64,000 nucleotides of DNA from Gammaproteobacteria bacterium (GTDB lineage: Bacteria > Pseudomonadota > Gammaproteobacteria > GRL18): positions 1 to 64,000 of the forward strand of contig JADGEM010000016.1 in NCBI GenBank assembly GCA_016744375.1, given 5' to 3'. How positions within the stretch are numbered: position 1 is the first letter of the stretch; each line of letters opens with the position of its first letter. This document shows positions 1-7,523 of this stretch, one piece after another. A program made the translations under genes and the position numbers. The notes under the pieces are model-generated. The model was given only the letters and a program-made list of their open reading frames with translations. It was not told the origin of the DNA and searched no databases.

Positions 1-45
1 TTTCTGCTTTCATCGAGAGTCCTCATAATAAATTAGTGAGGATCA

Positions 46-933
46 TTATGAAGCTGAGAAAATTGTTTGGGAATAACGGTAGTTGATTAAGCGCTTACGA
101 TTAATTGTTTTTAGTAGCTTACTTGTTTTTTGTTCAGTCTCCTCATCTAATGCTTCATGACTGCTAGCTTGTATTTCATTTCTATCACTAATAAGTGATT
201 CAATGGTTTGATTAATCTCACGAATCTCATTATATAAAGATTCTCTATTAATTGAAGAAGCATCATTGCCAAACATTTTATATATAGCTTTTAATTCACC
301 ATTAATCGCTTCAAAATTCTTATTGGCCAGTATTAGGTCTTGTCTCAAGTTATGAGACTCAAGATCATCTAGTCCTAATAGGTATTCTCCTATTGCACGG
401 CGAATTGTTACATTATCATACCCTTCATCTGATTTTAATAACTTATTGGTAGCGGTTAATTGATCAACATATAACAATCTAAGAATTTGATGCATAGTAA
501 GGTTTGCATCATCATTATTTTTATGTTGTGGGAGTCCAAGGATTTCGAATAATTGTTGTGAGTAGCTGTGACGTTCATGTGTTCTTCGACTAGAATATTT
601 TGTCCAATTAATACTATCTTTTGCTGAAGTATCAAAATCTCCTTCAAAAATATACATGGGTGCTTGACCTGTTTCCGTAATATCTCTCTTTAAACACAGC
701 GGAATATTATTGATAAAAACCTCTGCAACAACTGAATCACACATTAGTTGTTCCTCAGTCCATGACGTAAGTTCGTAGCCAAGTGCATAAACAAAAAAGT
801 CCATAATCGTAGACTTCCCAGTAGAATTCCACCCCCTTATTATATTAACCCCTTTGTGGAAATATTGGTCATAAACATGATGTGACCTACGTAAAATAAC
901 GAGTCTGTTTAATCTCAATGTGGATTTACTCAT
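46..933 (-). CDS. N-terminal part of SMC/ABC-type ATPase, probable ATPase component of an ABC-3C-like system; truncated or split
   Basis: ORF with Walker A-like GWNSTGKST near the N-terminus followed by coiled-coil-like sequence. Ends at 295 aa with no Walker B or ABC signature. Start overlaps the upstream gene by 4 bp. Confidence 0.6.
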   Translation of the reverse strand: MSKSTLRLNRLVILRRSHHVYDQYFHKGVNIIRGWNSTGKSTIMDFFVYALGYELTSWTEEQLMCDSVVAEVFINNIPLCLKRDITETGQAPMYIFEGDFDTSAKDSINWTKYSSRRTHERHSYSQQLFEILGLPQHKNNDDANLTMHQILRLLYVDQLTATNKLLKSDEGYDNVTIRRAIGEYLLGLDDLESHNLRQDLILANKNFEAINGELKAIYKMFGNDASSINRESLYNEIREINQTIESLISDRNEIQASSHEALDEETEQKTSKLLKTINRKRLINYRYSQTIFSAS

Positions 934-1445
934 ACAAGCTCCATATCATATCTAAATTCCATTAACCCACTTCTTGCTTTAAGACCTTTTTTCCCTAAAA
1001 AATTTATTGTAGGAAACTCATTAATGAGCATTCGAAACCATTCCTCTTTTACAACATCGCTATTTATAATTTCTTCATATATAATTTCAGGTAATAACTC
1101 CTTAGTGCGTTTTAAGATTTTATTGTTATAAGAATCAATTTCAATTATATTCTTCGCCATTAAATTTTGTATTGCTGTTGTTTGAATAGTTTCAAGCTCA
1201 TACATAGTACGCTTTACATTACTAATGATCTCGTACGGTTCAGATATTTTTTTTATGACTTTTCTAAAACTTGCGAGTTCTGCAGGAAATGGTTTAATCT
1301 CCTTAATGAGATGAGGAAATAAAATATAAAAATCAATAAGTCTAAATAACTCTAAATCAATATTACTATGTTGTGAGTTCTCAAGAACTAAAAGAACCCG
1401 ATAGACACAGTGATTTACATCATGAATTGGATGATAGATTAACAT
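930..1445 (-). CDS. ABC-3C 'middle component'-like protein
   Basis: 171 aa, N-terminal YHPIHDVNHCVYRVLLVLE reminiscent of ABC-3C middle components; position between the 184 aa gene and the ATPase, overlapping both. Confidence 0.5.
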   Translation of the reverse strand: MLIYHPIHDVNHCVYRVLLVLENSQHSNIDLELFRLIDFYILFPHLIKEIKPFPAELASFRKVIKKISEPYEIISNVKRTMYELETIQTTAIQNLMAKNIIEIDSYNNKILKRTKELLPEIIYEEIINSDVVKEEWFRMLINEFPTINFLGKKGLKARSGLMEFRYDMELV

Positions 1446-1993
1446 GTTTTATCCCATACAAGATGACACTTACCCGTTAGAAAAAATAACATTCCCAATA
1501 TAAAATCTTTAGTTATAGTCTTGTCAAAGTCAATAATTGCTTTATGAGCTGGTTCAATAATATGTGTGAATACTAAAGCATCTATTTCTGATGCTGGTGA
1601 ATTTTCAAGAATTTTTGGTCGAATAAACTGATTGAAACTGATACGTATATGTGAAAGAATTTGAACATATACTCTTTGCTCTGTTAAAGACATTTGTGAT
1701 TTAGCAACTCTTCTTGAAAATTTGTTTTTAAAAAACATAGCATCGCCCAGTAAATCCATTCGATCACCATTTTCTAATTTCTTCGTCAACCCAATAATTT
1801 CTCTGTATGGGTGATCAGTAATATAATCGCTCAAATCTTCAATAATATCTATTAATTCTGGATTTACTTCAGCAGAAGCAATTATTAGCTGAATTGCTTT
1901 TTCCAGAGACGAATTATCGGGTTCATAAATATCACCTAGATAATTATCCCCATTATGATCAGCTTTATCTGTGTAATTAACTTTTTTAGACAT
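1439..1993 (-). CDS. 184 aa protein, candidate ABC-3C C-terminal-domain/adaptor component
   Basis: Intact ORF in the overlapping cassette; N-terminal YTDKADHNGDNYLGD motif. Confidence 0.45.
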   Translation of the reverse strand: MSKKVNYTDKADHNGDNYLGDIYEPDNSSLEKAIQLIIASAEVNPELIDIIEDLSDYITDHPYREIIGLTKKLENGDRMDLLGDAMFFKNKFSRRVAKSQMSLTEQRVYVQILSHIRISFNQFIRPKILENSPASEIDALVFTHIIEPAHKAIIDFDKTITKDFILGMLFFLTGKCHLVWDKTC

Positions 1994-1995
1994 TT

Positions 1996-2265
1996 CTAAA
2001 ACCTATTATCTCCCTGATGTTTAGCATTATCCTTATAAACTACTGTTGATGACCTATCTTTAGGTTTATTCTTATTAAGAATAGCGAAAATAAATGCGAT
2101 ACCAATTATACAAATAATAAGAATGCTAATATAAAACATTCGATCACTCCCAAAAAGAGTGATAATTTCTTGTTGGTATAATAGCTTGATAACAATACTG
2201 AAAAGTAGACCTACAACACCTACAGATCCTGTTACTTTAATTGCTGTTTTCCACATATTATCCAT
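1996..2265 (-). CDS. Small two-TM membrane protein, first gene of the ABC-3C-like cassette
   Basis: 89 aa with two hydrophobic segments (VGVVGLLFSIVIKLLY and MFYISILIICIIGIAFIFAIL) and C-terminal YKDNAKHQGDNRF; stop is 2 bp from the next gene. Confidence 0.55.
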   Translation of the reverse strand: MDNMWKTAIKVTGSVGVVGLLFSIVIKLLYQQEIITLFGSDRMFYISILIICIIGIAFIFAILNKNKPKDRSSTVVYKDNAKHQGDNRF

Positions 2266-2736: not shown

Positions 2737-3033
2737 CTAGTCAATGATGTGCTTTGATGGCTCCATGGCCTGATGTAACACATCTATAATGTCAATATGG
2801 GTAGTTTGTAGTCGATAGTAAATTGTATGAGAACCCACAAAATCACTGTGGTACCCAACTTTCAAATCTTCTCTTATTATTCCGAGCAAAGGTTTTTCAG
2901 CAAGTGTCTGCATCCGTTTGCGAATACTTTGAAGGTATGTTTTTGTTCTCTTGGTACCGAACTTTTTAATTGAGTATGCCCGAATATTTCTCAAACTCTT
3001 CTGAGCTTCAGGTGATAGAATATATTTTGCCAT
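2737..3033 (-). CDS. parE: ParE/RelE-superfamily toxin
   Basis: 98 aa, MAKYILSPEAQKSLRNIRAYSIKKFG... typical ParE pattern; TAATG overlap with upstream ParD-like gene. Confidence 0.85.
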   Translation of the reverse strand: MAKYILSPEAQKSLRNIRAYSIKKFGTKRTKTYLQSIRKRMQTLAEKPLLGIIREDLKVGYHSDFVGSHTIYYRLQTTHIDIIDVLHQAMEPSKHIID

Positions 3034-3269
3034 TATCCAATCAATTCTTGCATAAATGCATCACCATCAACCCCTTCGCCTTGATCGAGTTGTGCTTCAC
3101 CAACAGAAAGTTTCTTTCTTAGCAGGTCTAGCTTAGCTTCATGCTCTTCAAGAAGACGAAGACCAGCTCTCACAGCTTCGCTGGTTGACTCAAATCGCCC
3201 TTGCTGGATTTTATTTTCAACAAATCCGCCTAAATGATCGCCTAATGTCACACTGGTATTTCTTTGCAT
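3033..3269 (-). CDS. parD: ParD-type antitoxin
   Basis: 78 aa, MQRNTSVTLGDHLGGFVENKIQQGRFESTSEAVRAGLRLLEEHE, typical ParD RHH. Confidence 0.88.
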   Translation of the reverse strand: MQRNTSVTLGDHLGGFVENKIQQGRFESTSEAVRAGLRLLEEHEAKLDLLRKKLSVGEAQLDQGEGVDGDAFMQELIG

Positions 3270-3438
3270 CGTTCACCTCTCTTTTCTGTATTACATATTA
3301 ATACAAAGGATTCTAAGGTGTCAATTGCTTAAGTTGGTATTTCTGATCGTTATTTCCTATTTGTTTCAAGACTTAAGTAAATCAACTTATTTCCTCATAA
3401 TCATACTGCTCTGAAAGAGAGAGCGCGAATGATCCGAC

Positions 3439-3504
3439 TTTTGATGTGAATAAGATATTGTCTTTGACTATTTAAACTGTAGCATTGCTAAATTCACATC
3501 AAAA
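3439..3504. repeat. Inverted repeat, 13-bp perfect arms TTTTGATGTGAAT / ATTCACATCAAAA, 40-bp spacer
   Basis: Arms at 3439-3451 and 3492-3504 are exact reverse complements. Confidence 0.8.
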
Positions 3505-3575
3505 AATGGGATGCCTTTTCTTTTAAATTCATATAGATAAGCGCCACGAATGGGCGTTTTTGTCCGCTTTTGTAG

Positions 3576-7523
<3,948 letters not shown>

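Follow-up and report, generated by a model that had tools for sequence, protein, structure and literature searches.

The first genes of the window, by which is meant the whole stretch of 64,000 nucleotides analysed here, form an MC5/CTD9-class ABC-three-component (ABC-3C) operon of the Lamassu superfamily, as judged from its sequence. The operon has one unusual property. No effector domain is fused to the adaptor protein, and the effector role appears to fall to a separate small membrane protein whose C-terminal tail shares a short motif with the N-terminal head of the adaptor. The motif differs between operons and agrees within each operon. The locus is probably a variant ABC-3C defence system in which a stand-alone effector is coupled to the sensor complex through a homotypic motif like that of BASS, with disablement of the membrane causing abortive infection.

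Components of the operon and their relatives

Four ORFs were found on the minus strand at positions 46–933, 930–1445, 1439–1993 and 1996–2265, encoding 295, 171, 184 and 89 amino acids respectively and separated by a 2-bp gap or by short overlaps, just as an earlier note on this DNA had described. The product of 930–1445 is the middle component MC5, the counterpart of LmuC, and matches PF20291 over its full length (161 bits against a cut-off of 25, E 2.2e-47). The adaptor, 1439–1993, ends in a CTD9 domain (PF20285, 97 bits against a cut-off of 27.9, E 1.5e-27), which the profile search placed at residues 68–180, window positions 1454–1792. The ORF at 46–933 gave a best PADLOC LmuB match of E 6.9e-26, this value being for the truncated copy present in the window, and also matched AAA_23. 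It contains the Walker A motif GWNSTGKST (808–834, minus strand) noticed previously, which is conserved in an alignment of 12 ATPases. The finding of CTD9, MC5 and LmuB in one operon identifies it as an ABC-3C operon of the Lamassu superfamily, of which ABC-3C is treated as a part (PMC10586767). These profile matches agree with the earlier description of an ABC-3C-like cassette, although that description overlooked both the motif shared by tail and head and the interruption of the ATPase gene by an IS66-family element.

Lamassu and ABC-3C systems have been described with the effector fused to LmuA. The window operon resembles the Lamassu superfamily (LmuA-LmuC-LmuB, DdmABC) in its order of effector/adaptor, middle component and SMC-like ATPase and in having MC5, CTD9 and an LmuB-type ATPase with a Zn-hook. 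It differs in that an effector domain is missing from the N-terminus of the adaptor, and in that the candidate effector is a separate membrane protein which shares the terminal motif. No fused catalytic effector domain was found in the window adaptor, where about 67 residues precede the CTD9 domain and the first ∼25 of these are predicted to be disordered. Given that a fused effector domain is typical of ABC-3C but does not define it, its absence marks a variant and the assignment stands. Every ABC-3C/Lamassu feature looked for in the sequence is therefore present save the fused effector domain, and this difference is the point of interest.

MC5 is rare. It was present in 1 of 57 close relatives, this being the window's own genome, and in 5 of 399 genomes drawn from the whole phylum. 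It was not found in the other 56 close relatives nor in the phage collection searched, thus the operon looks to have been acquired horizontally. A search of the genome contigs with the window CTD9 protein gave no match. Further loci were collected from IMG/VR (19) and from GTDB genomes (70). The co-occurrence of the genes, which the cassette reading implies, was evident in these loci as a CTD9 ORF was found directly before MC5 in 94 of 96, the remaining two being contig edges, hence in all 94 that could be tested. An effector gene precedes the adaptor in 88 of the 93 operons with a complete adaptor and nearly always encodes a membrane protein of about 50–140 amino acids. The closest relatives, from Neptuniibacter (L041), Alloalcanivorax (L043) and Vibrio furnissii (L044), have MC5 proteins of 50–65% identity, the same four genes and full-length ATPases of 629–633 amino acids. 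NCBI labels the homologues of this class ‘ABC-three component system protein’ and ‘middle component 5’, and the small membrane protein ‘hypothetical’.

Several observations concern the surroundings of these operons. A closely related group (L025–L033 and L036) lies between the replication-nicking and portal/terminase genes of P2-like prophages, as checked for L026, so that these prophages carry the system as cargo. A very similar operon, L042, is on a contig labelled Neobacillus in a metagenome-assembled genome, and its relatives are gammaproteobacterial; this is probably a binning error. In the window, a ParD/ParE toxin-antitoxin pair (2737–3269; PF03693 E 2e-22, PF05016 E 3e-14) adjoins the operon upstream in the same orientation, an arrangement like that of a small defence island.

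The full-length ATPases of the relatives matched their best LmuB models with E values from 1e-41 to 1e-47 over most of their length. All 12 ATPases in the alignment share the Zn-hook cysteines, CPxC...CxLC, and in none of them is the Walker B aspartate followed directly by glutamate, i.e. the catalytic glutamate is absent from that position. LmuB has been described as putatively defective in ATP hydrolysis (PMC10586767). AlphaFold2 models were obtained for MC5 (pLDDT 92.6) and for the window CTD9 protein (pLDDT 82.5), the latter having residues 10–23 below pLDDT 50 and being helical from residue 29. The best fold match of MC5 in the PDB was LmuC (9ny5_C, TM 0.48, E 0.76) and LmuA was among the fold matches of CTD9 (E 3.5); as these E values are near or above 1, the resemblance to LmuC and LmuA is supporting only. 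Searching the PDB chains by sequence with the ATPase, MC5 and CTD9 proteins gave no usable match.

The 89 amino acid protein encoded at 1996–2265 (minus strand) is regarded as the candidate stand-alone effector on the basis of its ORF, its hydropathy and the presence of such a gene upstream of CTD9 in relatives. Hydropathy indicates two transmembrane (TM) segments, near residues 13–29 and 46–62. Two segments are found in the clade of the window and in some other operons; most relatives have one. No confident Pfam, NCBIfam or PADLOC family was assigned to the protein, and matches to the Pfam families YxzE, CSG2 and DUF6524 were rejected, each falling below its own cut-off. The earlier suggestion that a separate small TM protein takes the effector role fits the comparative sequence evidence.

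The motif shared by effector tail and adaptor head

The last ∼15–20 residues of the effector and the first ∼15–20 residues of the adaptor contain the same short motif, rich in G, N and D. In the window the tail, STVVYKDNAKHQGDNRF, is encoded at 1999–2049 and the head, SKKVNYTDKADHNGDN, which is predicted to be disordered in the AlphaFold2 model, at 1943–1990, both on the minus strand. The local match between them scores 45 (P ∼0.002 against shuffled tails); VVYKDNAKHQGDN of the tail matches VNYTDKADHNGDN of the head. The same type of motif is found in L041–L044, for instance as VTYKNNSTHNGDNRF in the tail and LNYKDNSVHNGDNIF in the head of L043, which belongs to the HxGDN class. Other operons have other motifs, as in the tail and head pairs KNVKAGGDVVGRDKV and KNIRAGGDVVGRDKI of L011, which belongs to the GDVVGRDK class, NNTAAGDIAGGDIKK and SNTAKGDIAGGDIHK of L024, and SNNTVHGDMSAGDMNKNN and SNNIVHGDMAARDINKLN of L035. 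The median distance of the motif is 3 residues both from the C-terminal end of the effector and from the N-terminal end of the adaptor. Several effectors (L024, L053–L056) have two copies and the adaptor carries one.

A motif pair with a measurable match was present in 87 of the 93 operons whose CTD9 gene is complete. The 88th operon with an upstream effector, L098, has a stop which splits the adaptor (3183–3764) between motif and CTD9 domain and is apparently a decaying copy. In the other 5 operons both halves of the motif are absent; these have either CTD9 with a fused protease or another membrane gene placed downstream. None of the 93 has one half alone.

The strength of the match was examined using 47 non-redundant operons with less than 70% identity over the CTD9 domain. 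The score of a tail with its own head had a mean of 55.3 compared to 30.1 (sd 1.4) for permuted pairs, and the maximum from 20 000 re-pairing permutations was 36.5, giving a permutation P ≤ 5e-5 which is optimistic because the operons are related. This relatedness is corrected for in part by a partial Mantel test, in which the similarity of tails was correlated with the similarity of heads with r = 0.47 when controlling for CTD9 divergence and r = 0.41 when the body of the TM protein was added (P 0.0005). Comparison of the tail with the CTD9 domain, as a negative control, gave no signal in the 47 operons, and comparison of the TM body with the head gave only a slight excess (20.8 versus 18.6). 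The motif thus co-varies between effector tail and adaptor head, and from this co-variation in sequence we infer that the two pair directly.

It might be argued that the operon is an ordinary member of ABC-3C in which tail and head are alike through a recent duplication of DNA or through shared composition, given that both stretches are rich in G, N and D and that some of the operons are near-identical prophage copies. However, in 43 of the 47 operons the own pair scored above composition-shuffled tails at P < 0.01. Among 507 identical residue pairs, 55.6% used different codons as against 59.6% for random synonymous pairs, and this closeness to random indicates that the likeness is kept at the protein level; duplication of DNA was rejected as its source. 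Furthermore, a degenerate 27-base pattern for one variant of the motif had only 2 matches in 299 genomes, these being the tail and the head of the MC5/CTD9 operon of genome G341. Duplication or composition is therefore a very improbable explanation.

Exchanged effectors and the proposed coupling

The membrane protein is replaced in some operons. A calcineurin-like phosphoesterase (metallophosphoesterase; PF00149, E 6e-14) with two copies of the tail motif takes its place in L055 (3091–4443), and a protein with a HetE-N domain (PF20701, E 2e-27), so named from fungal Het-E, takes its place in L047 (4101–4424) and also has the tail motif. The CTD9 proteins of L057, L058 and L062 have a fused protease-like region and are preceded by a gene for an MBL-fold protein, and these operons contain neither the motif nor the TM gene. 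Pfam gave no match to the protease-like region, which was identified by eye; the MBL-fold was matched by PF00753 in L057. L014 and L085 are also without the motif or an upstream TM gene and have, after the ATPase, a conserved predicted membrane protein of 227–237 amino acids without a known family (L014, 7291–8004; L085, 7422–8105), which is possibly an alternative effector. The motif is thus kept on swapped effectors and lost where a protease is fused, the pattern expected if it forms the joint between adaptor and effector. Recognition of a detached effector by a portable terminal motif would explain how effectors can be exchanged without gene fusion. A trypsin-MBL nuclease pair is the effector module of Lamassu, AVAST and Hachiman (PMC12799240) and the MBL-fold gene followed by protease-like CTD9 in L057, L058 and L062 is the same module. 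Being without motif or TM protein, these operons represent the covalent alternative to the window variant.

In the proposed mechanism, the ATPase complex would sense invading DNA or a replication intermediate and the CTD9 subunits would then be set free or gathered into clusters in the manner of LmuA, which is liberated and oligomerises upon activation (PMC12409362). The part released here would be CTD9 bearing a short motif in place of a nuclease. The clustered N-terminal motifs may recruit the matching tails and so oligomerise the membrane protein by like-with-like pairing. The membrane protein, whose toxicity is assumed, might when clustered permeabilise or otherwise disable the inner membrane and bring about abortive infection.

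A different role for the motif can be envisaged in which both proteins use the same peptide to bind a third partner, whether membrane lipid, MC5 or the ATPase, without polymerisation, so that the TM protein merely anchors the complex and any damage is due to another activity. Such static docking would suit a motif which is short, polar and predicted to be disordered in the adaptor, and two proteins with one peptide could share a receptor. That a metallophosphoesterase and a HetE-N protein also have the tail, however, suits a plug for effectors better than a membrane anchor, the motifs of the two proteins vary in step beyond the divergence of the core, and the motif vanishes where the effector is fused to CTD9. 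In addition, several effectors have two copies to the adaptor's one, as in HET-s. Docking is thus considered unlikely.

Less likely again is that the TM protein is an inhibitor, an antitoxin-like regulator which silences the CTD9/MC5/ATPase complex at the membrane by means of the matching motif. As the first gene in the operon it would be co-expressed with the complex, and the matching tag would allow sequestration, but the same position is held elsewhere by enzymatic effectors, namely the metallophosphoesterase of L055 or the MBL nuclease with protease-CTD9 of L057, and other systems use the MBL-protease pair as an effector module (PMC12799240). On this reading, moreover, a CTD9 adaptor lacking the TM gene would be left with no effector.

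The preferred reading, in which the motifs pair with each other, has precedents. In BASS a motif is found at the C-terminus of a Bell effector with a TM helix and at the N-terminus of the adjacent NLR (PMC7889193, PMC8086366). The ABC-3C operons resemble the Bell-NLR pairs and fungal HET-s/NWD2 in that the genes are adjacent with a C-terminal motif on the effector and an N-terminal motif on the sensor side, in that the motif families differ between loci and match within them, and in that some effectors have two copies where the sensor side has one. The sensor is different, being an LmuB-type Rad50/SMC-like ABC-3C complex here and an NLR (NACHT/NB-ARC STAND ATPase) in BASS. Given that the sensor is not an NLR, the operon is by definition not a BASS signalosome and is likened to one by the arrangement of its motifs. 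Among the open-licence papers searched, none was found to describe a motif of this kind for ABC-3C.

The shared motif offers a candidate case of amyloid-style signalling in immunity beyond its usual receptor family. Whether signalling amyloids operate in bacterial pathways independent of NLRs has been asked in a review of amyloid signalling (PMC7889193), and for this question the operons supply dozens of specific motif pairs that can be tested. It is conceivable, with the chances put at slightly under even, that signalling amyloids extend beyond NLRs and that a widespread Rad50/SMC-like ABC-3C sensor triggers interchangeable stand-alone effectors through a prion-style motif. Most of the effectors would in that case be very small membrane proteins, and in some operons a phosphoesterase or HetE-N protein would take the role.

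Interruption of the ATPase gene by an IS66-family element

The first base of the window is the first base of its contig, C70. Contigs C50 and C75 share bases 1–98 at their ends, beyond which the sequences diverge; these bases are the end of an IS66-family insertion sequence with the terminus GCGCTTAC. At the junctions the repeat ends in GTAAGCGC...GCGCTTAC, the ends being inverted copies of each other (...TTAAGCGCTTAC). A related repeat in the sibling genome G013, L122, contains an IS66 Orf2 gene (TnpB_IS66, PF05717, E 3e-30). An 8-bp target-site duplication, AATTAATC on the gene strand, is located at 99–106 and is repeated at C15:99–106, so that a perfect duplication flanks both junctions.

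As the contig begins inside this element, the ATPase ORF is truncated. Only ∼278 codons (99–933, minus strand) of the 295 in the ORF are native, constituting the 5′ part of the gene, and the start of contig C15 (C15:99–1164) codes for the remaining ∼360 residues. When the full-length homologue from L041 was used as query, its residues 269–630 matched the start of C15 with 68% identity, and the ATPase frame runs on across the junctions (...LLKTIN / INRLTAEADEL...). The earlier note was correct in reporting an ORF with a Walker A motif, with the correction that its 295 amino acids are not the whole gene; a naturally short ATPase was rejected as the other half was found on C15. A single IS66-family insertion splits the gene at codon ∼279. 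With the missing half on C15 and matching 8-bp duplications, the window copy is probably inactive, and the fact that both halves are otherwise open suggests that the insertion is recent.

The IS66-family element fragments this assembly in at least 3 places (contigs C50, C75 and C15, with window bases 1–98), and the sibling genomes G013 and G014 have more than 20 related IS66-family copies each.
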